Part shown: positions 2,541 through 63,440 of the stretch, piece by piece
How positions within the stretch are numbered: position 1 is the first letter of the stretch
Layout of the letters: every line of letters begins with the position of its first letter
DNA from: Kappaphycus alvarezii
Taxonomy: Eukaryota; Rhodophyta; Florideophyceae; Gigartinales; Solieriaceae
DNA: 64,000 nucleotides
Direction: 5' to 3'
Assembly (NCBI GenBank): GCA_002205965.3
Contig: NADL03000523.1
Span: forward strand, 1,674,001 to 1,738,000
Translations under genes and position numbers: made by a program
Notes under the pieces: model-generated
What the model saw: only the letters and a program-made list of their open reading frames with translations
Database searches by the model: none
What the model was told of the DNA's origin: nothing

Positions 2541-3110
2541 AGTAAATTTTTGGGATATTTTAATGTATGGAAGATGTGGTCAGTTGTATCCACGCCGCTA
2601 GCGCGTTTTGCTGGATAAGTCGTCACTAATGAGTAATACTAAATAACAATCTTCACAGGGCCGTCTCAATGCCATAGAGCAGGCATACAGCGTTAGACGT
2701 GGCGGCTGCGGCAGCCTGCCTTTGGGTAGGCACCGCTCTAACCTTTCCATTGGTCTCCATCGCTCGGACTGCCACGTTCCTGGCGAAATCGGTTAGCACC
2801 GCGTACGCGTCTGTGTTGCAGCCTCCAAGGGTGGATATTGGGATAGAAAAAAGCATTCGTCCTGCAGAACTCGCGATCAGAGGTTCATACCTCCTACGCC
2901 ATTCAAGGAGTTGAGGGAATTTAAAGTTCGCACTTTCCTATTAGAAGGCGCAAGAGGATTGACGAACGTGACGTCCAAAACAGTCCGATCCTCCTTTGCC
3001 ACCAATTGCCTCGAAATCAAGCCTTGTGTGGTGAAGTTCAGAGAAGTTTTGAGGTTATTAGTTGAAAGTTTTGAATTTTTTGCCCGAAGAACAGTCATTA
3101 GATACATATT
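2541..3110 (-). mobile_element. LINE 3' end: restriction-like endonuclease remnant plus family C tail
   Basis: On the minus strand two frames carry parts of the C-terminal endonuclease seen repeatedly in this window. One (3107-2877) has DVTFVNPLAPSNRKVRT; the other (2856-2653) has IPISTLGGCNTDAYAVLTD followed by ARNVAVRAMET. The conserved GGWHPDA has become GGCNTDA, and a frame change lies between the halves. The frame ends at 2653 and is followed by about 110 bases of 3' UTR. That UTR ends in the family C tail (2541-2600: CCACATCTTCCATACATTAA on the minus strand, then AAATATCCCAAAAATTTACT). The copy is 5'-truncated and dead. The same endonuclease-UTR-tail order recurs at 22 kb and 49.8 kb. 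Confidence 0.75.
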
Positions 3111-4323
3111 TTCTCAGTTCGGTCAAAAAACTTCCTCAATAATGAACACTGCTCGCAAAGTGACCAATTTTATACCCACTAAGGGATAAAAGAAGAAATA
3201 TTTGAGCAAGAATTCGAGTAAAAGTACTGTCGAAAGATTTGATTCATATTTCTATGAATCTTTTTGATATCAATATATATTGTACTTTACCGTTGAGGTC
3301 TCAATGATGAACATCCCAGTTGCATATTTCAGCAGCTAAACAGGTATGTTTCTAAAAATTCCTCCAATACCGAGTACACGTCCTCATTTGTACTACTCTA
3401 GCCTTGCAAGAAAAATTATTAGACAGGAATATTCTAGAATTCCCGAAAGCAAAATAAATTAACTGAGGAATTAAATTAGTTGTTTTTCTCTCTGGATCCA
3501 TATTGTTTTATTTTCTAACTATTTTGAAACCACATGGATACGAAAAGAGCTAATTTACCAGACATTTGTGACAGTGGGAATGTGTGAGATTCAAAATCTG
3601 TGACAATAATCCTTTTAAAATTCGGAGCTCTAAAATTCAAGCGTTAGCTTGAAAATTCTTGCAAGATTGGAATCATGCAGTACAAAAAGAATGTCCGAAA
3701 ACTGAAGAATAGAGATAAACTAAGGTATATAGGAACATGGTCACATTATCCCGGTATCAGAAGAGAGCTCTCTGCAATGGGTATAAAGTTTTCAGGTATT
3801 ACAAGCGTTTGCCAAATATATTAAATTGAAATTACATATTACATGAACCGACTTAATGTTCCTCGAATATTTTTATCAATTTTTATATTTTCGGTGTTTC
3901 CACGTGTGTATATTTGTGAATAGATTATGGAGAGTAGCAAGCATGCCGAGCGTCCTTGATTCTTGAGGCCTCCGAGGGTACAAGTATCGCCGGCGGCCCT
4001 TGGCCGGACACAGTTTCCGTATGTCTATTTCTCTCCCGCCCACCCACCCATGCTTAGAGGCATCTCAACATGTCTGTGTCTCTGTAGGGGGCGAGCTTTA
4101 GCGGGTAGTACAAACAAGAGGCGGACATTCTTGTTCTGAAGTAAAGCCAGAAGAATCTTCACTAATGATAACTGATCTTTATCCTGATTTTGTTCAGTAA
4201 AAGTCATGCAGATTTGATAAATCATAATTCCGTACAGCATTGCCCATTTAATCTGTTTATATTCAAAAGGATAGCTATCCAAATGCATTCGATGACATAA
4301 TAATCTAATTGAGTAACTATGCA
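3111..4323. other. No gene seen; mostly AT-rich
   Basis: No frame shows coding character. A short GC-rich patch near 3960-4110 stands out from AT-rich surroundings, but its 87-codon minus frame has no recognisable motif. Confidence 0.5.
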
Positions 4324-4750
4324 GGTAATATAAAAGACCGGACCCTAACTACTAGAATAGTATAAAAGGGCGTGTATCTTGTGTTGTATCCAGACACGTT
4401 ACGGGTCCAGCGCTGAAATTCTAATCTGATTATCCTGTTTGTTCTGCGTATGAGGGAAACAGCTGTGCAACTGTGTTTTGACAAAGTCGACGAAGATCCA
4501 CAATGAGTAACTCAAGTGAGGAGACTGTGGATTCCAGTCGATTAAGAATCGAGAAACGCACTCCCGAGAATTATCACCTGTAGTCTCGAAATATGAAGCT
4601 TTCTCTGTTAAGCAAGGGCTCTTGACATATTTTCTCCGGTGAGGAGCAGGCGCCACGAGATGTTATAAGTGAGTACATTACCTAAGTTCAGAAGCAAGAT
4701 TGACTCTGCATTGGCTGATATCCTGTTAGCAGTAAGCGAGGAATGCAGTG

Positions 4751-4855
4751 CTTCGGCTATTGACTTTTGGTATCCCAAGCTAGTATGGGATACACTCAAA
4801 ACTTGCTTCGGTTATTGACCTAGGGGATCCCAAGCTAGTATGGGATACACTCAAA
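4751..4855 (+). repeat. 50-bp tandem duplication inside the copia remnant
   Basis: 4751-4800 and 4806-4855 are two copies of one 50-base unit, with a handful of differences and 5 bases between them. Each ends with CAAGCTAGTATGGGATACAC. It lies in the gag-side part of the decayed copia element and probably arose by local duplication. Confidence 0.85.
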
Positions 4856-5246
4856 TCACAGTTCATTGCTATATCCAAAACGGCCATGGATTCATATTTG
4901 GATAAGTATCAGTCCGGAAGGGTGAGGAGAACAACTACGTCTTATCTGAGATGCCAATCTCCCTTGATAAAGAACGATATTCTGGAAATTCCGAATTGTC
5001 CAAATCAAACGGCACCAATGAAGATAATGAAGAAAATAATAGTTTATCAGATGAAGTTGAGGTACTGAAGTACCCGACTCATTATCCCAATTGCACTAAT
5101 TCAGGACGACTAGTCTAACCTTCTGCACGATATAATGAGATATCTGCTATTGATCTCAATATACGCCCCAGTAATGAAGGGAAAAGAGTACCAAAGACCT
5201 ATAAGGAAGCAGTTCAAGTAAGCATTGCGCGGAATAGAAGGAAGAG

Positions 5247-5564
5247 ATGGAAGTAGAGTTCAAGAAAATCGAGTATAATGGCCCTTGGACGCTGGTTCCA
5301 CCGTCATCCGATATGAAGCCAGTCGGAAGCAAGTGGGTATTTGTGAATAAGATGGATGAGAAAGGTCATCTGAGAGGCCGTCCTGCGCGTCTTGTTGCGA
5401 AAGGCTTCATGGAACTGTTTGGAACTGACTATAAGGAGAGATTTTCTCTAGTGGCAACGTACTGTACTCTTCGTTCCTTGCTATCGGTGATTGCTCATGA
5501 AGACATCGCTCTATTGCAGCTTGACATTAAATCCGCTTTTTTAACAGGAAATTGGATAAAATGA
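5247..5564 (+). pseudogene. copia reverse transcriptase, N-terminal part
   Basis: The 105-residue frame matches the start of the copia-type RT domain (RVT_2). In order it has WTLVPPSSDMKPVGSKWVF, then RPARLVAKGF, then a DY-KE-FSLVATYCTLRSLLS stretch, and ends with LLQLDIKSAFLTGN. In this family the last motif holds the first catalytic Asp. Downstream, in other frames, the domain continues (MKQSEGF, then VSVDNLLLTG at about 5770-5800). The canonical YVDD has become SVDN there, so the active site is lost as well as the frame. Confidence 0.85.
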
Positions 5565-8419: not shown

Positions 8420-8543
8420 CCCCGCCCTTGTTCCCGTTCCCGTTCCCGCTCCCATCGCCCCCCTCTCCCCACCCCATAAAAATATCTACTCCCTCCCCAT
8501 CCGTTATCCCATCCCATCCCATCCCCCCCCACTCCCATCCACA
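8420..8543 (+). promoter_or_regulatory. Pyrimidine-rich leader with short tandem repeats
   Basis: The bases before the desaturase ATG are almost all C and T. They include a GTTCCC-type repeat near 8425-8450 and a CCCAT repeat at 8505-8525. The start context is CACAATGG. Similar C-rich leaders precede the genes at 38405 and about 41051. A role as 5' UTR or initiator region is inferred from position only. Confidence 0.4.
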
Positions 8544-11263
8544 ATGGTCGCCCTCCGCACCCATCCGCACCCATCCCAAACCCCCCCCTCCTACGATCCA
8601 AACCTCTGGTACATCTTCGGCCTCGCCTACGACCTCACCCCCTTCCTCTCCCACCACCCAGGCGGCCTAAAACCCCTCCTCATCTCCCGCGGCACCGACT
8701 GCACAAACCTCCTCCGCTCCTACCACTACCTCCCCACCCCCCACCTCCTCCGTCGTCTCCGCCCCTACCAACTCGCCACCCACCCCCCCACGACCCCTAC
8801 AACGACTACCCCGACGGCCCCCTCCCGGACTCCCCCTTCCACCAATCCCTCAAACGTCATCTCCTCCACTACCGTCGCAAAACCCCCCTCACCATCCGCA
8901 CCCCGCACCTTTGTCTCGTCCTCCTCTCCCTCCTCCTCCTCGTCTCCATGCTCCTCGCCCACCTCTACCATCCCCGCCTCTCCCTCGCACTCGCCCTCCC
9001 CCTCATCGCATGGCTCCCCACCTGCCTCGTCTCCCACGACGGCTCCCACTTTGCAACCCACCATCACCCGCTCCTCAACTCCCTCTCCGCCCTCCTCTGC
9101 TCCCCCTTTTACTTTAATTCCACCGTCTGGCTCCTCCAGCACGTCATCTCCCACCACCAGTACACCAACGACCCTCGTCGCGACGTCGACATGCATCACG
9201 GCTCCTGGCTCGCACGCATGTCCCGTGCACAGCCCTGGTATCCCTGGATGCCACGCACCGTCATCCCCTTCCTTCTCCTCCTCCAGCTCGTCTGGTCCAC
9301 CGTCTGGGAGTCTGTCATCCTCCCCGTCGCCCTGTTGCTCGACCTTGTGTGTGGGACACAACGCACCTTTCCCTCCCTCCCCAACAAAAACAACCTCGTC
9401 CGTCGCTACTGGCCCGCTATGCTCCTTCAACTCCTCCTCACTCTCACCGTCATGCTCGCCCCGTTTCTCACCTCCGCCCGTCGCATCCCCTTTCATCAAG
9501 CCTACGTCTATGGAATCCTCCCCTATCATATCAGCAGTGTTGTCTTCATTCTGGCCACCCAGTTTGCCCATCTCACGGACCGCAGCGCCGTTCGGATGGC
9601 CCGGTTGAAGGGCCGCCGTGATTCGTTTGCAGAGGCCCAGGTCGCGGCGAGTGTCGATGTGCGGCCCGCCTCGCACTGGTTGAATGTGCTGACCGGCGGC
9701 TTGAATACCCAGTCGTTGCATCACCTCGTGCCGGGGGTACATAACAGTCATTTCCCGGCCTTGTACCCTGAATATCGGCGCATTTGCAAGGAGCACGGCG
9801 TGGAATTGTGTGAGGCAGAGTCTGTGGTGGGGGAGTTTGTACGCTATTTGCGTGACGTGATTGGGATTAATCAGAGGCGTGGGGACGAGGGCGGTGGGAT
9901 GAATGAGACGAGGCAGGACGGGGGGGAGGTGACGTTTTCGGTGGAGGAGGTGGCGGGGAGGGATGATGTGTTGGTGATTGATGGGGGGGTGTATGGGATC
10001 GGGGAGTTTGAAAGGCGGCATCCGGGGGGGAGGGTGATTTCGACGCTGAGTGGATTGGATGCGACGAATATATTCTACTCGACGCATCGCGGGAGTGTGG
10101 GTGGGGTGGAAAAGGTGCTGGGGTCGTTGAGGATGGGACGTGTGCGGGAACGCGGGGGAAAGGGAGGGATCCCGGAGAGCACAGTGAGTGCTGTGCCGCG
10201 TGCGGATGAGTTTCTGGTAGAGCTGAACCGGGAGGTGAGTTGCGTGTTGAGGGAGGGGGAGGGACTGAGGGGGGAGGGGTTGCGTGCGGGGTGGGTGCGG
10301 ACTTGGACGTTGGTGGGGTGGATGATGGGGTATTGTATTGTGTTTGGGATGGGAGGGGTGGGAATGTTGGTGAGGGGGCTGGTGGCAGGGTGGATGGGGG
10401 TGTGTGCATGTGCGTTGGTGGGACAGGTGGCGCATGAGGAGACGCATGGGGTGTTGCGATGGTGGGGGGCGAGTGGGGAGGGGGGGAAGAGTGGGAGGCA
10501 TGGGTGGTTGAGGAGTTGGGTTGTGTCGACGGTGTGGGGCGTGCTGTGGCCGAGTATGTCGGAGCCGTACTTTCGGTTTGAACATACGACGCATCATGTG
10601 GAGCCTTTGAACCCGGAGTTTGATTATGAGGTGAGTGGGTTGTCGTACTTTGTGCGATACAAGGAGAGTCAGAGGTGGAGGGTTTGGCATCGGTGGCAAC
10701 ATGTTTATGCGTGGGCATTGTATGGGTTTTACATTTGGATGCAGACGGTGTTTGAGTATCCGTTGGGGTTCTTTCGCCGGTTTCACAAACGCTATGAACG
10801 TGGATTGTGGCATTGGTATAACTGGAGCGTGACTGCGGCCGTTTACGTTGTGTTGCCCATGTGGTTGGGAGTGGTGAATGCATGGCAACAGGCGACGTTG
10901 GTGTTGGTGTATACGTATGTTTGGCAACTGCTGTTGTATCTGGTGGCGGCGATTAATCATGCCGTGGATGTCAAGGCGCCGCCTCGGGAAGAGCTGAAGC
11001 ACATTTGGTCGTACCATGTGTTGCAGCATACGAGCAACTTTTGTGTGGGAGTGCCATTCTGGAACTGGTTATCCGGTGGTTTCAACATCCAGAACGAACA
11101 TCATTTGCTGAGCTGGATTCCGCAAGAGCACTTGTATCGTGCCGTCCCCGTCACAAAGCGTCTCTGTGCAAAGTACGGCTATCCCTACCACGAGTTTTCA
11201 TCGTTTGGCGCACTGTTGCAGTCGCATTATCGCGCGTTGCACAAGTTTGGCCAGCGGCCGTAG
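8544..11263 (+). CDS. Tandem front-end fatty acid desaturase (cyt b5-desaturase-cyt b5-desaturase), with one -1 frame change
   Basis: Front-end desaturases are ER membrane enzymes that insert Delta4/5/6-type double bases' equivalents, that is double bonds, into long-chain acyl lipids using cytochrome b5 electrons; this is the route to arachidonic and eicosapentaenoic acids. Reading 8544-8789, then -1 to 8789-11263, gives about 906 residues. Unit 1 has cyt b5 HPGG at 38-41 with His61 as likely second ligand, then histidine boxes HDGSH (165-169), HVISHH (200-205) and QSLHH (390-394). Unit 2 has HPGG at 493-496, then HEETH (631-635), HTTHH (681-685) and QNEHH (850-854). Gln in place of the first His of box 3 in both units is the front-end hallmark. 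Single front-end desaturases are about 450 residues, so this is two fused. The shift falls at C7 (8783-8789). Start at 8544 fits domain length. Regiospecificity cannot be read from sequence. Confidence 0.88.
8783..8789 (+). other. C7 run where the desaturase frame changes by -1
   Basis: The cyt b5 frame (from 8544) carries on without sense after this point. The desaturase frame (HDPYNDYPDGPL onward) starts at 8789, one base back. The run is set as C CCC CCC in the upstream frame, which fits the X XXY YYZ form of a -1 slippery heptamer. The simplest reading is a missing C in a homopolymer, either an assembly error or a real mutation. Programmed frameshifting is possible but unproven. Confidence 0.75.
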
Positions 11264-13650: not shown

Positions 13651-16057
13651 AATAGAGAAAGGTAAGGTACAGATATATCTTTGAGTTGATTATGATTTTA
13701 CCAGGAGAGGATATTTTGAATTTTGGGGGCCCTAGCGAGAAATGCTGGCATTTTTTCCATGAATCCGTGATTTGGGGTAGGAGTCCTTTTCGTTCAGGAG
13801 TTACCTCCTAGAGGTGGACTCAGGATATGAGGTTACATAGATTTAGGTTGGGTCATTAAATAAGTGGAAATAGAGACGAAATAACTGAGTTTGGGAAAAA
13901 ATATTGACGGTGTAGTCCAATTCGAAGTGCAAGTGTCCAAAATTTTGAGTAAAGTGCGGTAACTAACGTTATTTATTGCTCAAGAGGATGTGTTCGACGT
14001 TGTCGACGATTTTTTCTCCCTTTTCAATGAATCAATGTCATGTAACATATGTATGCCCGCAGCGACGGAACTCACATTGATATCTAAGAAGGAACGAGCA
14101 GGACATGGTATGCGATCTGGTAAAGTCCTGATGGTAGCGAAAGTTCCGTCGCCGTCGCAAAAGACTGTGTTTGGCAGGATAGAAGTCGTCTGACTTCCAG
14201 TTGTTTCTCTATGTGCAGCTGCTTGTTTTTTCCTGTAAAAGCTTTTGGGTCGTCAAGATCAATAAGACACAATTTAAGAGGGAAAGGGAGAAAGGAATAA
14301 TATCTAAATTATTGGTACAGAGTACATATGAGGGAGAAAGGGGAATGTCAGTGTCGTTTGGGCGCAGGTACGAAAAGTATATATCTGAAAGCTTAATCGA
14401 CTCAAATATTATCTTTTCAAGATGTTTAAAAACGTAAATTTTCTTCTGAAAATGCCCTTTCTCATTATTACAGCCCTTGAAACACAGTTAATTAGATATT
14501 TCATTACCTCTGACTGTTCTTTGACGGTCAAATGCACACAGTTTTTTCTTTTACTCTGTTCCAAACTCCGAACAGATTATCTTGCTAGACGTATTTGTTT
14601 TTGAATCAGAGGTATTGTATTAGAGTAATTACCTTCTCCAGTGGGCAGCTCTGTTTGTAGTTTTTAGTACTCAAATACAGCAATCAATAAAAGCACCACT
14701 GTGCGGATATCCCTAGTCGTCTGATCCCCTAACAGATGGCCTTCTAATTTACTTTATTACTTCAAAGATGGCATAGTCACAGCTAATATCCTTTTCTGTT
14801 CCAACAATTTCTCATGTACGTTCAGATATTCTCCAGATTATCCACTCCTTTTATGTTGCTAGGATATTTAAAATTTTTCAAATGTTTTTGATAAGCATAA
14901 GCATGCTATGACTTGAGAGCAGTCGTTTTTAGTATCATATTGTCATTGCATTTCATCTAGAGAAAGAACCAGTAATCTTTGAGCAATAGGTTGTATGATC
15001 AAGCAATAGACGAATGGGAAAAATTTAAAGACGATAAATGGACCTATCTTGTAGGCTGGCTTAGTGAGGATGGAAATATACTGAACATAAGCAATTTCAG
15101 TCTTCTGTACATAAATTAATTTCGAAGTTGTGGCTTTATGTCTACATCGTCCTTTCGGATTTTAAAATGCCCCTCTGCGTGTTATTTTTCAAAATTTCAC
15201 CATCTCTCCATTAGGGTCGATCTTTTGAAGGAATAGACAAATACCGAGACATTGAATATTATCCGTTGTAACTTTGAGAAGCTTCCCTTATCATTCTCCC
15301 CCATTTTAATAATTCAGTACTTCTTAATAAGCTCAATGTAAGTTTACGACTCCTATTGCATACCTGCATATGGATTAGAGTCGAGAATAGGTCTGACAGT
15401 AGATTATTTTGTATTAAAAGGGATTCATACTGTATTATGCTAATATTTACTTCGCAATTTAGAAAATATACAACTCATCTAAAAAATTAGTTTCATCATC
15501 AGTTTAGTACAAAAAACATGTATACTTATCCCAGTATAAATTTATACATGATTGGATATTGAAGGACTGTGATTTGTTTTTTGGAAGCAAAGAACAGCGA
15601 AATTTGTAGTTCGTAATGCTCGAAGTAAAAATATACTATGGAGGACCTGATTATATTTACATGATAGTTTAAGTATTTTTAGGAATATCGCAATTTTCAT
15701 GTCATTTAAGCTAACACTAACAATGATAGAGCCCATTAAATAATTGTTTCTGAAATTAAAGGCAATTGAAATAAATAGACGTGAAGGGGATTTTCATCAA
15801 TATCTTAACATAAAAAATGCGAATTAGTGAAAAAAAATCCGGATAATATTCGAAAGTACATGACTAAACAAATTAGTTGAAATTAATTTATTTCAAAAAT
15901 ATTTATACTACAATTTTTATGAATATTTTTAAATTGTGCTTAACTAAATCCTCTTTATTGTCATGCAATTTTTTAATATCCTAATTTTCCCTTAGCATAT
16001 TTGTAATTCTCATTTTCTTGCCAAAATGTGCCTCAAGTCACCTATTTTAATGGCATT
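13651..16057. other. AT-rich stretch without a recognisable gene
   Basis: Dense stops occur in all frames; the longest open frames are about 60-78 codons without motifs. No repeat family recognised elsewhere in the window is present. Confidence 0.55.
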
Positions 16058-16190
16058 TAGCCGGCCCTGTTAGGAAGGTCATGTACTGTTACCCATCAAT
16101 GACGACTCATCTCGCATAGTGCATTAACGGGGTGGATATAACCGACCACATCTTCCATGCATTAAAATAACCCAAAAATTACCCATGTTT
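16058..16190 (+). mobile_element. 5'-truncated LINE 3' end (stop codon region, 3' UTR, family C tail)
   Basis: 16058-16190 matches the end of the LINE copy at 22.27-22.61 kb: an AGCCGGCCxTGT start, a TGACGACT core, then GTGGATATAACCGACCACAT and CTTCCATGCATTAAAATAAC, ending in CCAAAAATTACCC. It lies alone in old AT-rich DNA. It contains only the last few codons and the UTR, as expected for an extreme 5' truncation. Confidence 0.7.
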
Positions 16191-19084: not shown

Positions 19085-19175
19085 ATAATAGGATTTTTTG
19101 GAGGTTTTGTTCTTGGAAGATGTAACCGATTCCATCATAAAATACTCCAGGCAACCATAATCGACTAAAGAAGGC
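19085..19175 (-). repeat. Family A LINE tail, degenerate copy
   Basis: The + strand has GGTTTTGTTCTTGGAAGATG, then CCGATTCCATCATAAAATAC, then CCAGGCAACCATAATCGACT. This follows the longer family A order (TCTTGGAAGATATATCCGAT, CCATCC, CCAGACAACCACAGTCGACT). The terminal GGGGAAAGG part is decayed. Confidence 0.55.
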
Positions 19176-19284
19176 AGAGATGGCCTAGAGGCGAGAGTTC
19201 CATAATGGGAGTACATACTGTAGCTCTGTATTGTAAGCAGGTGATGCAATCAGTGCCGTCTGAGCGGGCGGGTACCAAACTAGA

Positions 19285-20092: not shown

Positions 20093-20157
20093 TACCATCA
20101 TAGATCAGATATATATTCCAAAAGTAAAACACCCAAACCTTTCCCCTTCTACCATCA
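20093..20157 (+). repeat. 49-bp family A insertion with an 8-bp target duplication
   Basis: TACCATCA at 20093-20100 and again at 20150-20157 flank a 49-base insert. The insert reads TAGATCAGATATATATTCCA, then AAAGTAAAACACCCAAACC, then TTTCCCC. It is a very short family A 3' end whose 5' end is cut after the TAGATC. Confidence 0.8.
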
Positions 20158-36975: not shown

Positions 36976-37050
36976 CCCTGACAACATACTGTATCCCACT
37001 GGGGGGGGAGCTTTTGATGTGTTCAAAAACCTGAACCGTACAGGTAGTGG

Positions 37051-45658: not shown

Positions 45659-48350
45659 CCTTCCAGAAAGGCTAATTTTCGGACACATAGTGAAGAAATA
45701 AAAATAAAAATAGGAAGGCCAGGCCAACGTTTTAAACAAACGTCACCACGTGATTGGGCATCAGATTTAACATCACAGAGGGGGTATAGGAATAGTAGAG
45801 TTGAAATGAGCTCAAAAAATTCTGGACAGCATCTAGTCTGCCCAAGGGGGGTGTCCAACGCATGAGAGGGTTTAATTTCGGACAGAAAATCAAGGTGCTG
45901 GCAAGGAACAAACGAGGTCGTTCACTATCTCCGCCGCTACTTTGAACGACCTAACTCGCGGAAAACGCTGCGTACGCCTTTTGTGAGAGCCACTATTGTA
46001 GCCATCATGACTACCAGACATATATGTCTTGTAAACCTCCATCGAGACCTTGGCCAAGCTCTCAATCTCACAACGTCTTCTCGCACGATCCTTATTCATC
46101 TGCTCTACTCTTCGTCGCTTTGCATCTCTCTCGGCGGACTTTTGTTCCTTCCTCATTGCGTCCTCCATGCATTTACGACGCTTCCGTGCCTGTTGCTCCA
46201 ATCTACGGCTAATATGTGCTTGTTGCTTCCGTTTCTCCTCCTCCTCTCGCAGTGTCGGTCTTCTCGCTCTCTCTATTTGCCGTTGCTGCTGCCTCTTGCG
46301 TTTCGCTTCTATTCGGGCAAGCCGAGCTTGTTGCTTTTTAAGCTTCGCCTGCTCTTTCTCTGTTGTTGTTGAAGTTCCTTCGCCTCCTTTTGTCTACCTC
46401 GAGCCAACATGTCACCCATCGTCACACATTCCGCCGCCGCTCCGCTTTCTAAGACTGTTCTACCGGTTCGGGTCCAGTTTCCCGCGTCAGGGCCTTTGTT
46501 ATTAGAAACCTTCGTGCTGTCTTCTGTAAGAATGTCGTTGACTGTTTCAGCATTTCTTATTATCAAGGTCAGCTTCTGAATTGCTTGCGATGGTCCATGG
46601 GTTGCGTTCAAAATTTTCACAGCCTCATTATACGTTTCTTTGTCACTGTGTCGAAGACGTATCGTTCGTAAACGAGATGATACAGTTGTTCCACCAAGTC
46701 GCTCGGTTTCTTTCTCCACTAATGTTTGCGGTATAGATTTCAGAGGCCGGAACCGTGACGGGAAAGATGGATCGAAGGGAAATACTCCTGTCTTGCGAAA
46801 CAATGTACGAATGTCAGAAATGGTCATGTTCAGAAAAGCATACACACCACAGGAAAGATTAACGCCAACTTGTCGAAGGTTCAATATTTGAACTCTTCTG
46901 CAGTTCGTCACGAAAATGTTTCAATGACTTTTTGAACCCGCAGTTAACATTCTGGTCGCATGGTTGTAAGAAATGGGAGGTGTTAGCGGGGCTAGCGACA
47001 GCTTCAGAATTATTTTTTTGACATTGATCAATCCACTCGGTTCCGTTTCTCGAACTGTGACCGTCAAGGGTCAAAACGTAGGCCATGTCTTCTGGAACGA
47101 CCTTACGAACCTCGTTGTTTATATGGGTCATAAGCGCTGGAAGCACTGAAATTTCCATAGATCCATTCTCCATCATCTTGATAACTGCGTCCTCCGGAAA
47201 ACATCCATCTCTAAAGTACTTGTCACAAATAGAACTGCTCTCTCCTTTCCCTTTCCTTGTGTCCACAAACGCTTCAACCCAGTCAGTCATTACTCTTTGA
47301 CCGGCAACAATGAAAAATGGAGCCGTCTTTCTACCTGATGCTGAAACAGCAACAGCTGCTGTTATATGCTTATTGGGGCCGTTGACGGATGATTTTGACT
47401 TATATGGCCCGTGATGTCCAGAGGAGGAGCAATATGCCTTCTTGAAAGTTGAATCTGTAGCATCTACAGCTGTCTCATCCATGTTCCAAACACGGTCAGG
47501 GTCGCCTAAAATACCAGGATGTTTATCCTCTATGCTCTGAAGAACCGTGAAGAAGGACTGCACATGCTCTCTATTCTCTGCTCGCAGTTTTGCAGATTCC
47601 TTGCTTTCCACTTTCCTGTAAGTTATTTCACGATGCCGTGATCGAAAAGCACGAACAGCCTCATTGCTAGGAATACCACTAGCCCAGCCTTTCCGTCCGT
47701 CGCCTGCAATGGTTGCCATAATGCGTTTTAAATCTTCGTTAGTCATCGCAAACCCTATTGATGCTGCAAAACGTATACCTGTTACAATCAATCCCTCTTC
47801 CTCCTCCGTGAGTACAGTACGTTTCCCAACTCGACTGCATTGTACCAAACGTTCAATGTTGACCTGGTCATTCCTGCGACATAACTCTTTCAATTCTCCA
47901 ACCGTGGATTTCGGAACACCAGTAGCAGCTGATATTTTTCGCAGCGTCAATTGAGTTGTCCTAAGCAGTTTAACTGCCATGCGGCGCGCTTCGCTACGTT
48001 TAGTTAGTATGTCGTTGGTCCTTTTTCGGTTGTTTGCTAGACGTCGCATTGACGGAGGCATTTTGCCGAAAGTGACAAGAACTAAACGAATGTTATTGCC
48101 GCCATCAGTCGTGGCCGTTGTTTATTTTGGTTTTGTCTCCTGTTTCGGTGTGTTTTGGCGCCATCACGCATCAAACCGGTATTGTACAATCCACCAGTTG
48201 TGAGTATACGATTGTCGCTATACTAATGGCTACTCAGAGGAACCCATTGGGAATAATACGATGTTCTTAACGGCCATTGAAGAAGGAGGAAAACTAAGTC
48301 AAGTTTGTCCGAAAAAAGACCCATGTCCAAAAATTAGCCTTTCTGCAAGG
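45659..48350 (-). mobile_element. Complete pogo-like DNA transposon with matched inverted ends
   Basis: The left end reads CCTTCCAGAAAGGCTAATTT then TCGGACA. The right end, on the minus strand from 48350, reads CCTTGCAGAAAGGCTAATTT then TTGGACA. That is 27 bases with two mismatches. TA lies outside both ends (45657-45658 and 48351-48352). Length is 2692 bp. Copies of TTTCGGACA near 45678, 45882 and 48308 (minus) may be subterminal transposase sites. The closely matched ends suggest a fairly recent insertion. Confidence 0.88.
45890..48061 (-). pseudogene. pogo-like DDE transposase, two compensating frame changes
   Basis: The N-terminal 400 codons (48061-46859) are intact. A helix-turn-helix (LRKISAATGVPKSTVGELK) follows a basic start. 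The DDE_1 catalytic core has VWNMDETAVD, MAYVLTLDGHSSRNG and HFLQPCDQNVN, so all three acidic residues are present. The frame then shifts near 46880 to 46911-46309, which carries ISDIRTLFRKTGVFPFDPSF, the family's usual block after the core. It shifts back at a CAA repeat near 46360, running on to 45890 as a long Lys/Arg/Gln/Glu helix (likely coiled coil) ending RTQRFPRVRSFKVAAEIVND. The two shifts cancel. Either both are mutations or a small intron hides one. The core may still be functional; the C-terminus is not as written. Confidence 0.85.
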
Positions 48351-48540
48351 TATAACGACGGGTTATAGCACAGTAGCCATTGGGTTGAAATGCACGGTTC
48401 ACAGTTTGGCTTCAAAAACAGTAGTCGCTAATTTTGAATGAATTTAACGCATATGCTTTAATGGCGGAGCGATACTACAGTACAGTACTGTAGAAGAAGA
48501 AGAAGACTTTACCAAGCAGGAAAGGGGGGGCTAGCGGCCC

Positions 48541-49559: not shown

Positions 49560-49619
49560 TCGCAGTAAACTAACCCAAACGTTCCCCCACTTTTGATCCG
49601 CTCACCTCCCTCAATGCGG

Positions 49620-49968
49620 CCGTCCCCGCGAAGCATAGAAAAAATGAATCTTTTATCGCAACTTCTGTGAGAGGTAGGCTCGTGCCTATCCCTATATCTA
49701 TCTACTCTCGGAAGTTGGTACCCAGACGCCTATAGGGTGCTAACGGTTGTCGCGCGGAACGTGGCCGTTAGGGCGGTGGAGACCAATGGAAAGGTCCGAG
49801 TTGGCCTGCTAGTCCATGGCCGTAATGTCAAACGCCGCATTCCCGCTGGCCGGCATTGAGCCGGCTTTTGAGGGAAAATTGAGAGGTACCACTGGTCACC
49901 CTGTAGGATATACCGGGCCACAACCGACCATATCTTTCAAATATAAAAGCACCCCACATTTACCCCTA
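49620..49968 (+). mobile_element. LINE 3' end: endonuclease remnant and family C tail
   Basis: + strand 49685-49770 corresponds to the PIST-GGWHPDA-ARNVAV region (GCGCGGAACGTGGCCGTTAG). The frame ends at a TGA near 49870 (GIEPAF). Family C follows at 49905-49968: ATATACCGGGCCACAACCGA, CCATATCTTTCAAATATAAA, AGCACCCCACATTTACCCC. A direct counterpart to the copies at 2.5 kb and 22 kb. Confidence 0.75.
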
Positions 49969-50299
49969 CAATCTAGTAGAGTGTCGATTTGAGACCGGCC
50001 GGCAGACAACCCGCCTGGGAAGGGAACAATATGATTAGCACACAAACTGGTCGTTTGTTAGAATCATGATGTCATGTAGAATTGCAACCATGGGGTTTCC
50101 AGCTGCCATTTTTCCATACATATGATTCTATAATAATCGCCTCTTCATGCGAACTGGATCATGAAAGGAAACTAGCATTCCGTGCGGATAAAAAATAGTT
50201 ACAGAATTTACGGTATTAGAAAACTTACGCCTGCACTATTCACAAACTGATTTTCTAGTTCCTGAAACTAAATCGTACAAATATTACACGTAGGGGACA
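49969..50299. other. No gene seen
   Basis: Mixed composition, no motif. Confidence 0.4.
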
Positions 50300-50418
50300 A
50301 ATATGCGGATGACCCCGCCTCATTTTCAGACTCTCTAATACACAGACCTGCCCCCCAGTTTTCGGAAAATAACCGTCCTACATCCCTAATCAGTAAAACA
50401 CCCCAATCCCCCCCTGCA
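50300..50418 (+). repeat. Family B LINE tail
   Basis: + strand: CCTCATTTTCAGACTCTCTA, ATACACAGACCTGCCCCCCA, GTTTTCGGAAAATAACCGTC, CTACATCCCTAATCAGTAAA, ACACCCCAATCCCCCCC. It is the best-preserved family B copy. Confidence 0.85.
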
Positions 50419-50683
50419 ATATTACAATTGCAGAAATTTGGAGAAATTCTATGACTTTTTTCCTGAGAAGTGACTAAATAGTGTACTCTTTTCTGTAACT
50501 CAGATCCGGACACGAAACCCGCGTGGACACCTCAAGCGGGAGGCAGCTTTTGCAGATACTTGATTCAGGTCAACACGCGTCTCCATTGACAGGAACAAAG
50601 ACGTTCAGCATCATGGGGTTGACATGGAATCACTTTCATCGAATCCTCCGCGTCCTTCTCCAAACATATCCCTTTCCAATTCC

Positions 50684-50745
50684 TCTGATCTACATGGGGG
50701 AAAAGGTTTAGGTGTTTTACTGTTGGAAGATATATCTGATCTACA
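50684..50745 (-). repeat. 40-bp family A insertion with an 11-bp target duplication
   Basis: TCTGATCTACA occurs at 50684-50694 and 50735-50745. Between them lies TGGGGGAAAAGGTTTAGGTG, TTTTACTGTTGGAAGATATA. The right flank resembles the family A consensus (TCCGATC), so the true edge may be a few bases further; the exact repeat is nonetheless there. Confidence 0.75.
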
Positions 50746-55777: not shown

Positions 55778-58560
55778 GGTATAAAGAGGCGCCCGGCAGC
55801 GAGTTTATTGAGAAATCTGTGTTTCTCAAATATATAACAGATGAGAGACCACATCATCTTGGCCGTATTGGCAAATGTGACCTGCTATTGATGAGTGCCA
55901 AACAGGGTTAGTCCAATCATGTATTTGCCTTGCAATATGCCTTCTTGCGGGCGAAGTATGTTGGTGACAATGACTCGAGAGGATCCTCAGTAAAAAGATC
56001 AACAAAATCTTTCAACGAAATCAAGAGCTTCATCCTTGATAACAATTTGCGGGTATTTTTTGGGGGCGGTCTTGAGCTACGGATTACAACGTCGATATTC
56101 CGGTTTGTCTCCGATCTTGATGTTTTTGCAGTTGATTTCGTAACCATTCTTGGGCAAAAAATTCTCCATTGGTGACTGGAAAACAGAGCAGAGATTTATT
56201 TTGAGTGAAAAAGTAGTATTCTTCTACTGAATATTCCCCGGTAGCCTCTTGAGAGAGTAGCTCGATCCCCCTTTCCAATCTTAGTTGCAACTTCCTTCTT
56301 GAAACTTTTTGGCATAATTTACGGATAAAATTTTCTGCATAATGAGTCTGATAAAGTTCTTAGCGTTGAGTCCAGAGAGTACGAGTAAGGTACTTCAAGT
56401 TAATGTTTCAACAAGTCAACCAACCTCTATCATGGTGCTGCTATCTGCGCAAGGTAGGATATATGCCTTGATGTTTCGAAGTCGGCATGGTATAGCAACT
56501 TTTTGGTGAGTCTTGTTGATCTGTACTTTTCCTCTAACTTCAAAAGGGTGTCTATACACATTAAAAATAAATTGAGCTTGTGACAAGTGGGTGGTCAAGA
56601 TTTCCATACCCCCTAAAAACATGAAGATGTCGTCTGAAGCGTCGATTTGAGCTGCAACAGAATCGATTCGGCATGGAAACTTGTGGCCTCGAAGCTATAC
56701 CAGGACCATAGCTGACCTTGTTGGAGAGGGTAAATAAGCTTTGGAGCTAAAGGTTCTAGAGAGTGGAGAGGAGCTGAGACTTTGTCTTCACAGTTTCTTG
56801 GTCTTTTCTTGGCTCCGTGAGCCTCGAGAAGATGTTTCCTCATTTCGGCCGATGTATAATATCAGTCCTTAACGAGGTGATTTTCGTTTCATCCGGGGTG
56901 ATAGCTGATAGCTAGTCGTTATTTCCGCAAATAGAGATAGAGGATTTGGATCCGATGAAGCGAAGCATTTAGTAAAGTATGCATAATGAAGAACCCGATT
57001 ATCTATTAAAATTGCAATTAGAGACAAGAAAGAAATTATATCGTGCACTTTCGTGTGCTGGCCCATACTATTTTCATGCTGTATCACTTTTTCAGTGCGC
57101 TGTCTGACCGATCGACCTTCCTGGACAATAGCATATCCATTTCTGTCGCCGTTGATATGCGTTGCAACCATAAGAATTAGCACTCAGAAAAAAATCCAAC
57201 CCTCCGACGTGCTTGAAAGCAGTCCAAACGAACAAGCTACGAAAATAATATGGGGTTATAACCGTAATAACGATCAAAAAATGGCTCGATATCATTACTA
57301 TCTCTACGATCGGAAATGGTATTCTGATGCGTCCTGTTACATGAAAGAGGTGGCCAAATCGGCCGTCACCTAAGCTTTAGACCAGTATTCCTGGGCGAGG
57401 GTGACAATTATTCAACGCAACTCCGAGAAAATAGTCTATCCTACTGCTGCCTGCTTGTTTAACTAACCATTTCTTGAATAGACTATCAGACATTGTTCAG
57501 TTGATAAATGTTATGCGCAACATTGGTGGAGAGAAGAACGCTTTGCACTACACAAAAACTGCTACTTGCGGCGGGTTATCGCTCACATTAAATGGATATA
57601 TCAGGGTCAAAAATTTATCATCCGATCACGAGCAATGTTACGGGGAACAAATCACCAGTACTTCTTTAATAGTGGCAATTTTCAACCATTTCAGTCGATT
57701 TTAGTACGAGTCTGTGGGATTTTTAATTTTTGCAGCGACTATTTAAACTGTGAATGGGGAACGTCAGGCTCCGACTCCCTTTAGGAGCTATATACCACCG
57801 AAAAAGACCCGAACTCCAATAACTCCAGGTCGAACCTCAACAATCACCACTACTAAGTTGTCTCTCAACTTTGATATCCCCTCAATTTCCATCTTCTGGC
57901 GGCGTTATTTATTTTTAGACGAGGTCTTCGTCTAACGATACTTGAGAGTTAAGATCCTAAACCTCTTCGCTACAAAGGGCGGAACATTTTGTGTGCACAT
58001 GTAAGCATGGGATGTCGGAGAAATTGTACCGGAAGAGTTATAAAGTAATTTATGAGGTAAAGAGGTCGAAAAGCGGTCAAGAATCTTGCCAGAAGTACAG
58101 AGTTGAGAAAGAGGTAAAGAATATGAGATAGATAAAGAGGCTGGAGAAAGGTAAGGAGTGAAAGTCGTAATGTATATTTATGCAGAAAACCGCCCCCTGG
58201 TAGCGCTCTAGTTCTTCCCATCCTCTCTAATTGCAGCCCTCTTTCCGGTCATGTACGGGCAAAGAAAATGATCCCTGCTTACAGCGCGAAAGTTGGAAAC
58301 ATCGGCGAGACCTAGCGCATAGAGGAGCGAGGAAGGATTGATTGGAACTCAAAATTTTTACGCAATAGGTACCTTGAATTGATTTATGAGTAGTTGAAAA
58401 CGAGAAAAGGAGGCAGAAAGGCCCCTTTATCAGGAAAACACTTTCCGCCCTGGAGAAACTCTAGTGCTGAAGTGGATGCGGTCGGTTATTTGTATTTTAG
58501 ATTCAGCCACATGGATTGAATGCAAATTAAGGAATAATAATCTTTTCATCATTCGCAGTA
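55778..58560. other. Gene-poor; possible BED-finger scrap
   Basis: Minus frame 56843-56613 begins MRKHLLEAHGAKKRPRN, which recalls the end of a BED zinc finger from hAT transposons, but the Cys pair is not in frame. Other frames on both strands (57053-57373, 57474-57704) show no family motif. Confidence 0.3.
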
Positions 58561-58569
58561 ACCCGTTCT

Positions 58570-61500
58570 GACATGGCCGTTCGCAGATGTCGCCTTTTCC
58601 TCTCCTTGGGTAGAACCCAGGGGGCAAAGCAGCCCTTCTTCGAACTGATCCCCCATTATCCACCAGAGAAGCTACCTTTCAGTCCTCGGCTTCTGTTCAT
58701 CCCATGCAACACTTTCCTGTCACTCTCACGCCTCCCCATAGTTTGCTACTGCCGCTCAGGTTCTTTGTCTCGAATTTCCGCCGTGTTATTCATAGCTTGC
58801 ACTCTTCAACCGCTTCTCAGTCCGATGGTATGTCCCCTTTTTCCTGCGAATGCTACTCTGCCGGTCAGGGGGCTTCTTAACGGCCGAGATTTCCTTCATG
58901 CTCTGACAAAGTTCCTAAGCCTCTGCTTGAATGGCGAACTGCCAGCTGCATGCTGCTCATACTTCTGCGGAGGCCGTTTCGCTACGCTGGCGAAAGAAAA
59001 CGGGGGAATCCGTCCGATCGCTGTATAGCTTCCCTTCCGGCACCTAGTTTCTAGAGTCCCGGCGCACAATGTATATCCCGTCCTTCGCTCATATAAGTGT
59101 TAATGGTGACACACTTACGTTATTGCACGTGTTTGCCAAATAACTTATGCCTCCTCAAAGAGTCATACAGCTTTGGATAAGTGCAATAATAGTACGTACG
59201 TGTGGTAATCAATCTATTTTATTGATTTGTCTATCGACAACAACTGTTGACCTCAGGAGAGAGGCAGCACAGATCTAAGGCGTCGACAGACACGTCTGAA
59301 CCAGAAAGTTACTTAGAAAAAATAACCGACTCCCCGAGCAGAAGAGGGAGAAAGGGGGCATCCCAGAGGGACTTCTGGGTTCTTGTGCCCATTTTTGTGC
59401 TTCGTCCAAACAGCGACTACGCCCGAGCGACTGGGGTTTCTCTGTCACTCTATCCTGAACAACAATAATTTTGCCCAATCAGCAGAGAGTCGGCGCTAGG
59501 AATAGTACCGATGCGATCATTCACTCCGTGCGTCGTCTTTCCCAGCACATCAAGTTCCACGACCACTTGCTGGTTCATATGGACGCTCACAACGCTTTCA
59601 GACGCATTTACCGTTAGCGAATTCTTGAAGCGATACAAAACTTTGTCCAGGCCTTGTGCTTTGGGCTCACTACTTCTACAGAACCGTTACAAAGCTCGCT
59701 TTCGGTCCCTACTACGTCGTGTTGTGCCAAGGGCACTCAGAGAAGAGATACCCTCGGCCACGTGCTTTTTTCCATTGATATTCATCCTCTATTGCTCTCA
59801 TTGCAAGAGATATTGTTGTCTTGTATCCGTTTGTAACGGGTTATAACTTTGCTGATGCATTTGCGAGTCCCGAGTCAGAAGTTAATTTCCATGCCCCGTA
59901 ATTATATGCCACGCATTCATATGCTACGCAATTCCAACTCACCTCGCTCTCGCTCGCTGGGTTGACGCGCAAGCTAGACAGGAGTCCATCCACAAAGCCT
60001 CGGTGATTGCGCAGTAGTATATATATGAGGTGGACTAGCAACATTCACAATAAAGAACAGGCAGGAAAAAAAACGAAAACTATCCATCTCAAAAGTTCTC
60101 ACCTGCTCCGAATGCATGGTATACAGATGCAGGCAAAATTTTCCATCCGTGTTCCCAAGCCGCTGCCGCCATCCGTTTAATCCAGCTCGAGAGGGGTCCA
60201 CATGTATTCCAGTTGAACCTTTCCAAAACCCAAGTGTACGATTTCTACCCTTCCGAGGCCCCTTTTTCACTTCCCTGCCCCTTTTCTATCCCCCAGTTTC
60301 TAGGTGCTGGTATCTACGATTAGGTCAGACACGTTTTTTCCCGAGATCTTCACAAAAAGTCAAACTGCCGTGGACCGTATCTTCCAATCTTTCCGAGTTA
60401 TGGACGATTCAAAATTGGCTTTCCACTTCCACTGATTCTACCCGAACTCCTCCCAGGCCATGTAATTCCCCCACTCAATCTATGATACTCGCCCCAAGAT
60501 TCGATCAGAAGCAGAGGGTAGCATTCCACGAATTGCAATTGGCCTGATCGGATCGGGCCTGGCTCCGGGCCTCTCTCCCCTTTTCAATGGGCGGCCTCGG
60601 TCTACTGCAAACGTCAGACATTACAGAGACGGCTTACGCAGCATCTCTAATCGATTATTACTGTCTTATCTCCGATCTGCAGACCCCTTTCACTATCGCC
60701 TATTGGAGGAAGTCCCCCGGTTTGCGATCTCGCTCCTATCTTCCTGCCATCAACAGCTGTCTTCGTCGCCAACAGCTACTGATCTTTTCGAGCGTTGTTT
60801 CCCGCCTGTTCCTGGGGAAAAAATTCAATATTCGATCACAACTGAACTCATGCTTTCGAAGTCTGACGGATTTTTCTTGTCCCCAGCAGCACTTGACAGA
60901 GCACGGCTCCTCCGCATTGCCACATTCTCCTCCTCTTCCGTTTTCTCTTCTCTTAATCACCCACATCGCAGTATGTACATGGATACACGTGCGTGGAAGG
61001 TCGCCTTGACTATCCTTCTCGGTATCGCGGTATTCCTAGGATCCACTCGTTGTACGATGTGATCCCGGCGCTCTGTCGATGCCGCCTTCGTCTTTGAGCC
61101 AAGCGGCTGACATGCGTTGACTTTCTAGTACGAAAACGGCTTGAATCGGCGGCAACACGTCCTTTGCAACGTTCTCGCTCGCTTCTGTAAGGAACTTTGC
61201 GTCTCTGCACTCGTCGAACATACGCTTCCCGTCCAGGATCTCAATTCTTCTATTCATTGCGAGTCCTGTCTATTACGAATGGACACCTACTGTACATTCC
61301 TGGTGCCTATGGTCTGCACAACAATTATATTGCCGTCGGCAATACTACTGCCCATCCTTCTGCTCGCAGCCACATCTCGCCGAGTACAGATACCGCAGGC
61401 GCTGCCGCGACACTCGCAGAGCGGGAGTAACATCGTCATTAAGGCGATTACTTCCACCAACAAGATATACTACTTTCCTCCGTCGTAGTTAATATCTATG

Positions 61501-61680: not shown

Positions 61681-61689
61681 TCTGAATAC

Positions 61690-62910
61690 TCTCCGCACAA
61701 TTCCATACCTTAGAATTCCTTAATATCTCTAGTTACTTTCTGAATACCTATAGTACCCTTCTGTGCCATACTGTACAACTCGGAAAAAATCACCACCTAG
61801 ATTTTCCGTTCCGCTCTCTAAAAAAGCTCATCGCGGCCCGTATAACGAAAGCGGCGGCGAACGATGCCGCAGCGAAGGACTCGGGTAGAAGGATGTCGAT
61901 GAGGGCGGGGTGGTAGGGGTAGAAGAAGAGAGGGTTTTATGGGGAGTTTAGTAAAGTGAATGGGCCTATTGCCCTTAAACTCGCAAATATTTGGATAACA
62001 GGGCTCGTTTGATTTGACTTGACCGACTAGATTGAACTTTATGAAACCGTTAGCTGGTTCTGGCCGTTACTCAGCTGTACCCCTGTATTTATTTTCCTCT
62101 AGGTAGACTAGCAAAGGCAGAATTTCATTGTCTAACGATAGCAGGGAGAGGTCTGTAGGAGACTCAAGGCCTGTGAAACAGTGTAGATTCTAACGTTTCG
62201 CTACCCAGCCAGGTACGGTAACAAGGGATACTACGACAGAAAGCAGAGTTCGCCCAACAGGATGGACCCAATAGAGGAAGCGCTACCTATAAGGGGAACT
62301 TAAAAGGGGAATTGCATACACTATTTGACTGTATATAGTGTGGATGGCTATGTCACCCACATACAGTATATGACATTTTAAACTAAAATACTATACTGTA
62401 CCTGCCTTGAGTTTAATCTACCGGGTCACCTAGTATATTGATAAATCACATACTGTAACCCCATTAGAAAATTTTAAATTGTAATTAGTAGCACCTCAAT
62501 GGATTTTCTATCTTCAATATGAGAGACCAAAGCCGATATGACCTGAATTTTCTCAGTTTCATTCAAACTGTTATGTAGAGTAGCAAAAGCCGTCACCAGT
62601 TTTGTACTGAGGACGGATTTTGAGCTGATTCTATCACATTCAATTATCCCCCAGACCGTACTCTTGGCTTAGTAGGGCATACGAAGATAAAAAATCTGTG
62701 TTAGACATTAACACGGGTGACATCACTGGAGACATTAAAGCGCAGATAATCCACCTTCAAATTGAATAGCTCGTCGATATAATACCACATGTATCAGCTA
62801 AATCACCATTTTCCCGGCGACAACCATGAAGTGAAAATTGTTTTTCATTACTTCAATGTCCAATTGTCTTACGGAAAATTGGTCTTAAGCCTTTTAGGGG
62901 ACTAGATCTA
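61690..62910. other. No gene seen
   Basis: Mostly AT-rich with short frames. TATACTGTACC-type palindromes appear near 62330-62460. Confidence 0.45.
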
Positions 62911-62911
62911 T

Positions 62912-62992
62912 AGAGCAAAAGTTTGATTGTTTTACTCTTGGAAGATAAATTAGATCTACCTTAAAAATTTCCAGACAACCACAGTCTTGGGC
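62912..62992 (-). repeat. Family A LINE tail, worn
   Basis: + strand: AAAGTTTGATTGTTTTACTC, TTGGAAGATAAATTAGATCT, ACCTTAAAAATTTCCAGACA, ACCACAGTCTTGG. The terminal GGGG is lost. Confidence 0.7.
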
Positions 62993-63334
62993 GGCGTCTG
63001 CATAGGTCACTTTCTTGTGTTTTTTGTTGGCCGAAAGTAGTACTCTGTCGCAGCAGTCCTTTTTTGTGCTTCATGTATTTGATAACACACTATCTACTGC
63101 TGAACCCGATGTCATTGCCCATATAATGGAGGGTAAGTCGATCTGCTGTAATATTTGAAATATGCAGTCAATATTATACCGGACTACTTTAGAGAGTAAC
63201 GAATACAACGATATTCTTTCTGTATAGCCATATAGATGCCAGTAACTACAAACTAAGCTCGCAGTACTGGACAATACAAAAGCATCAACTTGCCTCTGGG
63301 TTAAGATCAGTCGAACCTCGTATTATGTCAGTGT

Positions 63335-63440
63335 CCAAATAGGAGGGGCCTGTAATTTGGAGTGCTTTACTGATTGGAAATATAGGACGTATTTTTACGA
63401 AAAGTGGTGAAAGAGAGAGGGAGGCAGTCTGGGCGCTGCT
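63335..63440 (-). repeat. Family B LINE tail, worn
   Basis: + strand: AATTTGGAGTGCTTTACTGA, TTGGAAATATAGGACGTATT, TTTACGAAAAGTGGTGAAAG. A further weak echo (GAAGTTCTGTGTATTGAAGG) is at 63870-63890. The rest of the window to 64000 shows no gene. Confidence 0.6.

Follow-up and report, generated by a model that had tools for sequence, protein, structure and literature searches.

About two dozen short repeat copies in a 64,000-nucleotide (nt) stretch of the rhodophyte Kappaphycus alvarezii (contig NADL03000523.1, positions 1,674,001–1,738,000; hereafter the window) ended, on the element strand, in one common tail. Judged from their sequences, five families of these copies (A, B, C1, C2, and D) are the 3′ ends of one clade of long interspersed nuclear elements (LINEs) that carry a reverse transcriptase (RT) and a restriction-like endonuclease (EN) motif, and E is probably a further family of the clade. 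The same tail ended TN, a coding element in which no RT was found. We hold it very likely that these elements arise by target-primed reverse transcription, with RTs that recognize a tail lacking a conserved stem and with TN copied in trans. The genome searches covered the whole assembly (336,021,096 bases in 884 contigs), and L-numbers label loci in this genome.

A sequence-only reading of the window had placed a 20-base tail at the ends of three families, A, B, and C. Copies of all three did end in tail variants, and the 20-mer was the real end of the tail, but the family alignment extended the common stretch to ~42–45 nt; A and B stood as families, while “C” comprised at least three (C1, C2, and D). 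A nucleotide profile built by iteration from the terminal ~42 nt detected 19 window copies at E ≤ 0.01 and 25 rows at E ≤ 10; family B copies scored low in this profile, yet they aligned to one another. The literal 20-mer with up to three mismatches occurred twice in the window and never in 100 shuffles, and a looser edit-distance scan gave 13 matches, some of which looked false, against 0–6 (mean 3.4) in 20 four-mer shuffles. The 14-mer TAAAACACCCAAAT was found 181 times genome-wide, compared with six times for its reversed control. The tail reads ..GGATATATCTTCCAAGAG-TAAAACACCCAAACCTTTCCCC in family A, ..CCGACCACATCTTCCATGCAT-TAAAATAACCCAAAAATTCCCC in C1, ..GCTGACCATATTTTTCATGCAT-TAAAAACACCCCAAATTTCCCC in D, and ..ACCGTCCTACATCCCTAATCAG-TAAAACACCCCAATCCCCCC in B.

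When the five LINE families were compared with 300 shuffles per pair (the B row being a composite of two window copies), the last 42 nt were alignable in all 10 family pairs (z 2.8–8.2), whereas the 50 nt preceding the tail gave no alignment in any of them (z −0.6 to 2.1). The tails were G-poor, with 1–4 G per 42 nt. When seven LINE tails and that of TN were aligned, 10 of the 49 columns were invariant, mostly in the TAAAACACCC core, and family-specific differences were maintained between the LINE families. The consensus fold of the eight tails, confined to the 49 aligned columns, contained no base pair; single tails showed no common stem, and single-sequence folds of longer stretches varied by family. 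An exact search for the tail in viral contigs gave no match, and two stretches there fitted a pattern for RT relatives, neither of which was confirmed.

The RT of the window LINE retrieved 75 scored matches among 14,495 loose candidates in its own genome, and the best 30 loci, window copy included, were analyzed. At 28 of the 30 a tail lay downstream on the same strand, 700–820 nt past the RT match, with E ≤ 0.01 at 26 loci and 0.14 and 0.059 at L038 and L039; no clear tail was present in the window LINE or in L030, which is closest to it. The EN stop was readable by motif in 23 of the 30 loci, where the 3′ untranslated region (UTR) was about 92–125 nt long, except for a longer one in L034 and two tandem tails in L052. 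The latter, at the 3′ end of a family D LINE near 3790–3850 of that locus, suggest that the RT restarted on the tail. Three motifs were invariant in a nine-row protein alignment: YHDD of the RT, the knuckle C-x4-C-x9-H-x3-C, and RPD-x13-D..K-x3-Y; N-terminal C2H2-like fingers were visible in the C2 and D rows. The RT profile matched R2 proteins in PDB at 8.8e-9 over the RT, and an NCBIfam scan of three window proteins returned nothing for the LINE RT or EN frames. LINEs with a restriction-like endonuclease are defined by a CCHC knuckle and RPD-x(12–14)-D...K after the RT, and this motif, from which the enzyme is predicted, followed the RT in nine of nine rows. The elements also had the marks of non-long terminal repeat (LTR) retrotransposons, namely an RT open reading frame (ORF; RVT_1), target-site duplications (TSDs), and truncation at the 5′ end against a constant 3′ end, the one-sidedness that the sequence-only reading had named as a check. 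No LTRs were seen at the RT ORFs, although no dedicated LTR search was made.

In the RT tree of the 30 rows, A (7), C1 (7), and D (11) were each monophyletic at 100/100, and the tail class followed the tree. Three C2 rows also formed one clade; the window LINE and L030 were called C2 on weak scores only (27 and 25), and L054 contained both D and A 3′ ends (score 86 vs. 80). The shared tail, its place after the EN stop, and the monophyly of the RTs of the tail classes are direct observations. The 3′ ends, previously thought unrelated, were thus the 3′ UTRs of separate families in one clade. Family A, once tried as a short interspersed nuclear element (SINE), was rejected as such, as it formed the 3′ end of full-length LINEs. 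A family B query from EN to tail gave 40 scored matches of 2,593 candidates; all 40 reached into the tail, and 31 ended within 6 nt of the query end. The median end branch of the tree was 0.0036, and 14 family A copies elsewhere were 100% identical to one window copy (20536–20629) over 94–96 nt, so LINE activity looked recent. Since the families belonged to one clade and each had its own RT, most of the tail sharing would reflect descent with the tail held constant.

Insertion marks were counted in 135 copies (two of 137 rows were removed as duplicates), with 3′ flanks permuted among copies as the control. Exact flanking repeats of 9 nt or more within 130 nt were found in 18 of the 135 against 1.3 with permuted flanks, and repeats of at least 10 nt within 2 kb in 24 against 2.3; TSDs, a second check proposed earlier, were thus in excess of chance. 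Among the window copies, 6 of 25 were flanked by an exact repeat of 9 nt or longer within 450 nt, compared with 5% of random sites. The set with insertions delimited by TSDs comprised 21 copies with a duplication of at least 9 nt, after L041_3840 and L009_4713 had been dropped from 23; both are still inside the 135-copy counts, in which a few rows are artifacts or duplicates. The 21-nt “TSD” of L041_3840 and the 8-nt “TSD” of L008_1326 were rejected as homologous EN sequence, an 8-nt repeat at 62915 was rejected for lying inside family sequence, and L009_4713 repeats L009_1154. In L009, tail copies with matching flanks (98–99% identity) lay ~3.5 kb apart, and this recurred in L010; these are segmental or tandem duplications, not new insertions.

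Unoccupied sites were clear in paralogous repeats for five insertions, of 42–43, 61, 94, 99, and 218 nt. CA stood just before the duplication in 10 of the 21 copies (background 7.1%, P 5e-7), and CACT, a motif picked after inspection of the sites, crossed the duplication edge in eight. The first non-C base after the tail was T in 90 of 135 copies, against a 27% share of T in the nearby background (with C counted). The duplication excess, the empty sites, and the target preference were observed directly, at insertions that were dispersed and numbered at least hundreds genome-wide. The copies found in the window were as follows, by position and strand.

42613–45085, minus: copy of a LINE that has an RT and a restriction-like endonuclease motif, from sister-copy alignment; RT frame 43225–44979 (RVT_1 match short of the Pfam cut-off at E 5.6e-6; R2 as the best sequence in PDB, E 0.0055), EN about 42700–43140, frameshifted, with the CCHC region deleted.
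42613–42650, minus: decayed C2-like tail of that LINE, profile E 1.2.
43157–43199, minus: 43-nt family A tail-only insertion inside that LINE; TSD TTGCTTGCCCAG at 43200–43211 and 43145–43156; empty site in sister LINE copies L030, L027, L031, and others.
32959–33950, minus: degenerate TNLPVM (TN) element with C2-like 3′ UTR and tail, from L059 alignment and the protein repeat family.
33715–33744, minus: probable 30-nt tail-only insertion (C2-type) in the TN ORF, by eye against L059; TSD TCTAGAAAG/TCTAAAAAG at 33745–33753/33706–33714, with one mismatch, also read by eye; then another repeat.
24502–24809, plus: 5′-truncated TN with C2-like 3′ UTR and tail; TSD TGTTACTGTCC at 24491–24501 and 24810–24820.
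33978–34480, minus: family B LINE 3′ end with EN coding end, 3′ UTR, and tail; genome matches run into the tail.
50289–50417, plus: 5′-truncated family B 3′ end; TSD AATATTACA at 50280–50288 and 50418–50426.
24314–24396, minus: family B 3′ end; candidate 8-nt TSD CTTGACTC, equaled within 150 nt by 3% of control sites.
45316–45460, plus: family B 3′ end that meets, tail against tail, a tail-like end of a different kind on the minus strand (45460–45497).
63356–63440, minus: degenerate family B tail region, weak profile E 1.9.
49590–49966, plus: family C2 LINE 3′ end with EN remnant, 3′ UTR, and tail; 378-nt L039 match, tail E 5.9e-7.
2541–3036, minus: family C1 LINE 3′ end with EN remnant, 3′ UTR, and tail; 498-nt L032 match, tail E 6.6e-6.
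16050–16184, plus: family C1 3′ end, from tail profile and copy matches.
22043–22608, plus: C1-like LINE 3′ end with EN remnant and tail, from tail profile.
22621–22722, minus: 102-nt family D copy (3′ UTR and tail) lying tail-to-tail with copy 22043–22608.
25154–25224, minus: 71-nt C1 insertion; TSD CTGGAAACA at 25145–25153 and 25225–25233; just upstream of the next copy.
25102–25144, minus: tail copy (D/E-like), profile E 1.3e-6.
20536–20629, plus: 94-nt family A insertion; TSD CTCTGGCATGG at 20525–20535 and 20630–20640; empty site in L021, L012, and L059.
20100–20149, plus: family A tail-only copy; imperfect 8-nt TSD TACCATCA.
25854–25888, plus: 35-nt family A tail-only copy; 8-nt TSD TTTCGAAT, equaled at 3% of control sites.
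50695–50734, minus: 40-nt family A tail-only copy; 11-nt TSD TGTAGATCAGA, which overlaps family sequence and so makes the 5′ edge uncertain.
21603–21677, minus: family A 3′ end, from tail profile.
25437–25576, minus: family A 3′ end of about 140 nt, from tail profile and copy matches.
25947–25986, minus: family A tail-only copy, from tail profile.
62915–62988, minus: family A 3′ end, from tail profile.
19093–19176, minus: degenerate family A 3′ end, from tail profile.

The claim that B ends a LINE at 34.0 kb agreed with the copy at 33978–34480. The assignment of C to LINE 3′ UTR ends was borne out by coding remnants and tails at 2.5, 22.6, and 49.9 kb and by a C1 3′ end at 16.1 kb; the LINE at 42.6 kb had only its decayed tail.

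The sequence-only reading had also proposed that one or a few RTs mobilize all families. The tail would then be a common currency for general cross-mobilization, which would agree with its 10 invariant columns across LINE families and TN. TN implies that use in trans occurs, and the proposed existence of a partner that carries the tail, with no RT found in it, was supported. However, every family had its own RT, with many open frames (>1,000 amino acids (aa) in 12 of the 30 RT loci) and near-identical copies; the family-specific tail differences persist, and no A RNA copied by a C RT was seen. We regard cross-mobilization of all families as unlikely, although worth keeping in mind.

The lengths of the insertions were taken from right-anchored similarity in 94 copies outside the RT loci, of which a few rows are segmental duplicates (L009/L010). 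Six copies measured 30–40 nt, 32 measured 40–60 nt, 24 measured 60–125 nt, and 22 measured 125–500 nt; seven were longer and three had no partner. Insertions of 30–60 nt are thus common, and the extreme 5′ truncations reported earlier were confirmed: many copies were little longer than the tail, some with clear TSDs. Eight of the 21 TSD-delimited insertions, from families A, C1, and E, measured 40, 41, 41, 42, 42, 47, 47, and 47 nt, matching the conserved tail in size. Two short window cases were less certain: one of 35 nt flanked by an 8-nt repeat, and one of 30 nt whose 9-nt repeat has a single mismatch.

Tail-only insertions might instead derive from a discrete RNA of ~40 nt, such as an RT-protected fragment of degraded LINE RNA. 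The agreement of the eight TSD-defined lengths (40–47 nt) with the tail length speaks for such an RNA, and so does the loss per nt, which, from the length histogram, was about 0.024 at 40–60 nt, 0.009 at 60–125 nt, and 0.004 at 125–500 nt, ~2.5 times higher in the first class than in the second. The start points differed, however (about 30, 35, 40–43, and 47 nt), and the lengths graded without a gap into longer truncations, inserts below ~30 nt being undetectable. We consider a discrete RNA distinctly doubtful.

TN had been read as two further coding ends, TNLPVM and an acidic ORF. Alignment to L059 contradicted this: the acidic ORF was the N-terminal half and the TNLPVM ending the C-terminal half of one element of ~960 nt, with one ORF and the tail at its end. 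The ORF encoded 262 aa in L059 and 271 aa in copies without a frameshift near the ORF end. Compared with L059, the window copy lacked ~116 nt and contained ~120 nt extra, made up of a tail-like 30 nt with a 9-nt flanking repeat followed by a further repeat, and the acidic half resembled an end because the 30-nt tail-only insertion apparently sits inside the TN ORF. A short repeat around TTAATTTACTGTGGTAGATATGTGGGTTGGTA (33646–33705, minus), which partly recurred in L034, L012, L043, and L059, adjoined this insertion. The TN protein frame 33213–33665 gave 153 own-genome matches (1,433 candidates, 150 scored); the listed open frames had 96–353 aa, with one of 805 aa, and many were without internal stops. 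The L059 copy lay inside a LINE EN gene, which resumed beyond the TN tail.

The tail was present in seven of seven TN copies examined. Searching with the stretch from the end of the ORF through the tail returned 40 scored matches of 691 candidates, window included, and all 40 reached the tail end within 5 nt at 95–100% identity; TN copies are thus observed to be uniform and to end at the tail. The idea that each TN tail came from a template-jump chimera was rejected because the scored copies were uniform through the tail, although the first fusion of TN and tail may have arisen by a template jump. The last ~54 nt of TN had their best match in C2-type copies. No RT was found in two copies with flanks (L059 and window) or in the 5′-junction matches, the TN protein had no relative in Pfam or PDB, and TN had no similarity to the LINE ORFs and loci searched beyond the shared short repeat. 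TN does not look like a deleted LINE, since no relative was found among those loci. TN was also tried as a SINE and rejected, an ORF of ~270 aa beginning 5–33 nt after the start of similarity; RNA polymerase III boxes were not searched.

The 5′-junction query matched 39 other TN copies and one fragment. All 39 started 5–33 nt before the ATG: 33 of them 5–16 nt and the other six 25–33 nt before it. TN might still be the 3′ part of a larger LINE with its RT further upstream, as these matches were made against one copy (L059) and one match lay in the 805-aa frame. Two copies nevertheless began near the same point in different surroundings, in the EN gene in L059 and beside a B tail in the window; the 33 copies lost similarity to L059 nearer the ATG than the other six, and the open-frame lengths varied among copies, as expected from differing upstream flanks. 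Judging by the two copies whose flanks were read and by the variation in frame length, TN likely has its own 5′ end just before the ATG, and a larger LINE around it appears improbable.

The tail could also be common by descent from one ancestral LINE alone, not yet diverged and without functional recognition. All RT-bearing carriers examined belonged to one clade, as this would require. However, the adjoining 50 nt had diverged beyond detection in every family pair while tail similarity was kept in every one, and TN retains the tail without similarity to the LINE ORFs searched, so descent alone is very improbable. We give practically no credence to ends of DNA transposons or Helitron-like elements, which would likewise put a constant terminal motif next to variable sequence, and reject them because truncation is one-sided, the duplications vary in length, and LINE coding sequence lies upstream, the motif standing right after the RT-EN ORF.

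The reading we prefer, target-primed reverse transcription with tail recognition, would run as follows. An R2-like LINE clade with a C-terminal restriction-like endonuclease would have split into A, B, C1, C2, D, and probably E, the RNA of each element ending in a G-poor tail of ~42 nt recognized by its own RT. The endonuclease would nick dispersed DNA, preferring CA^CT, and the exposed 3′ end would prime synthesis that begins at the CCCC terminus of the RNA. Joining of the copy upstream would leave a duplication of 8–13 bp. Copying would often halt soon after the tail and give insertions of 30–60 nt, and the remainder of each 3′ UTR would drift while the tail stayed constant. TN (~960 nt, ORF of ~270 aa, C2-like tail) would be copied in trans and be the case that requires such action. 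We infer both the cause of the early stop and the trans-mobilization of TN, with C2 as its likeliest partner. More tentatively, and with less than even confidence, we suggest that the conserved tail and the tail-only insertions reflect the same ~42-nt RNA footprint, held by the RT and read by its sequence, and that TN took this footprint from C2.

Several points weigh against this reading. Recognition of the tail by the RT would follow from tail conservation and sharing. The EN stretch of the R2 match in PDB was not significant, and the predicted endonuclease fold comes from motifs. No TSD of 9 nt within 130 nt was seen in 117 of the 135 copies; age and longer inserts may be the reason. As the loci were picked by tail or RT match, densities and length fractions do not come from a random sample. 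The 5′-junction query cannot see past the edge of L059 and thus by itself does not exclude a longer TN element. The ratio of non-synonymous to synonymous substitutions in the TN ORF was 0.84 (bootstrap 0.47–1.63) in one open copy, chosen as open and divergent, and 0.78 when the window pseudogene was used; neither value demonstrated selection on the TN protein.

According to PMC4640811, restriction-like-endonuclease LINEs are mostly target-specific, HERO less so, and 5′ truncation is described for R2 in PMC7650587. The present LINEs resembled the R2 superclade (R2, NeSL/Utopia, HERO, R4, and CRE), as outlined in PMC4640811, in having one ORF, an RT, a CCHC knuckle, an N-terminal zinc finger (here in C2 and D), and a C-terminal PD-(D/E)xK-like motif; they differed from its members described there in their dispersal, the short CA^CT preference, and duplications of 8–13 bp. 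The closest PDB sequences of the LINE profile were R2 proteins; this does not assign a clade. The fixed 28S ribosomal DNA (rDNA) site of the R2 clade proper was not found, since the flanks of the RT and tail loci differed; rDNA itself was not examined. Utopia and NeSL are defined by RT phylogeny and by a U2 snRNA or spliced-leader target. LINE RTs that recognize a 3′ tail, and partner elements that borrow it, are known from PMC4176376 and PMC3747384. TN borrows a tail as the SINE partners of those stringent-type LINEs do, and need of the tail for copying, reported there, would apply here as well. In contrast, the tails in those accounts have a stem-loop, where no conserved pair was predicted in 49 columns here, and in this genome one tail is common to several families. 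The R2/R1 hybrid and Persaeus short internally deleted elements (SIDEs) are likewise non-autonomous partners with a LINE 3′ end, but arise by internal deletion of LINEs, whereas the TN body was not LINE-derived as tested.

TN was mobile and had its own ORF, no RT that could be found, and a LINE 3′ end. HAL1 and HeT-A are RT-less protein-coding retroposons copied by the machinery of another LINE. TN was like them in its ORF without RT and its presumed use of LINE machinery in trans, and unlike them in that no relative was found in Pfam or PDB, nor in the LINE loci beyond the shared short repeat. No report of such a system was found in the open-access literature, although other reports may exist. 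What is unusual is the combination of related families holding one tail that lacks a conserved stem, a coding rider in which no RT was found, weak dispersed targeting, and insertions of tail length.

The window contained other features. At 8480–11263 (plus), a 927-aa open frame comprised two stretches of fatty-acid desaturase with a single reported cytochrome b5 domain, and read as if two b5-desaturase genes had fused in tandem. The window also encoded an IBR RING protein and a 2-oxoglutarate (2OG) dioxygenase domain. A DDE_1 transposase frame (46859–48121) with a weak helix-turn-helix match occupied 46309–48121 (minus). A 558-nt inverted repeat of 92% identity (34728–35284 and 37049–37602) flanked a second RT ORF at 35189–36217 (plus; RVT_1 E 2.5e-22), which looked unlike the tail-bearing LINEs. 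A further RT-like ORF may have left remnants at 58531–61009 (plus), where the ORF list showed ..LAKENGGIRPIAV.. and frames downstream of it, and runs of the TACTGTACAGTACTGTA type were seen at 62300–62460 and 48470–48500.

With several related families that look recently active, one short conserved tail, an apparently RT-less coding partner, and many tail-only insertions, the system is a natural experiment on the template features that an RT must see, and it offers a short RNA with matched family variants for exchange in vitro. A further suggestion is that insertions of 30–50 nt, which are easily overlooked by repeat annotation, can be a frequent product of LINEs.

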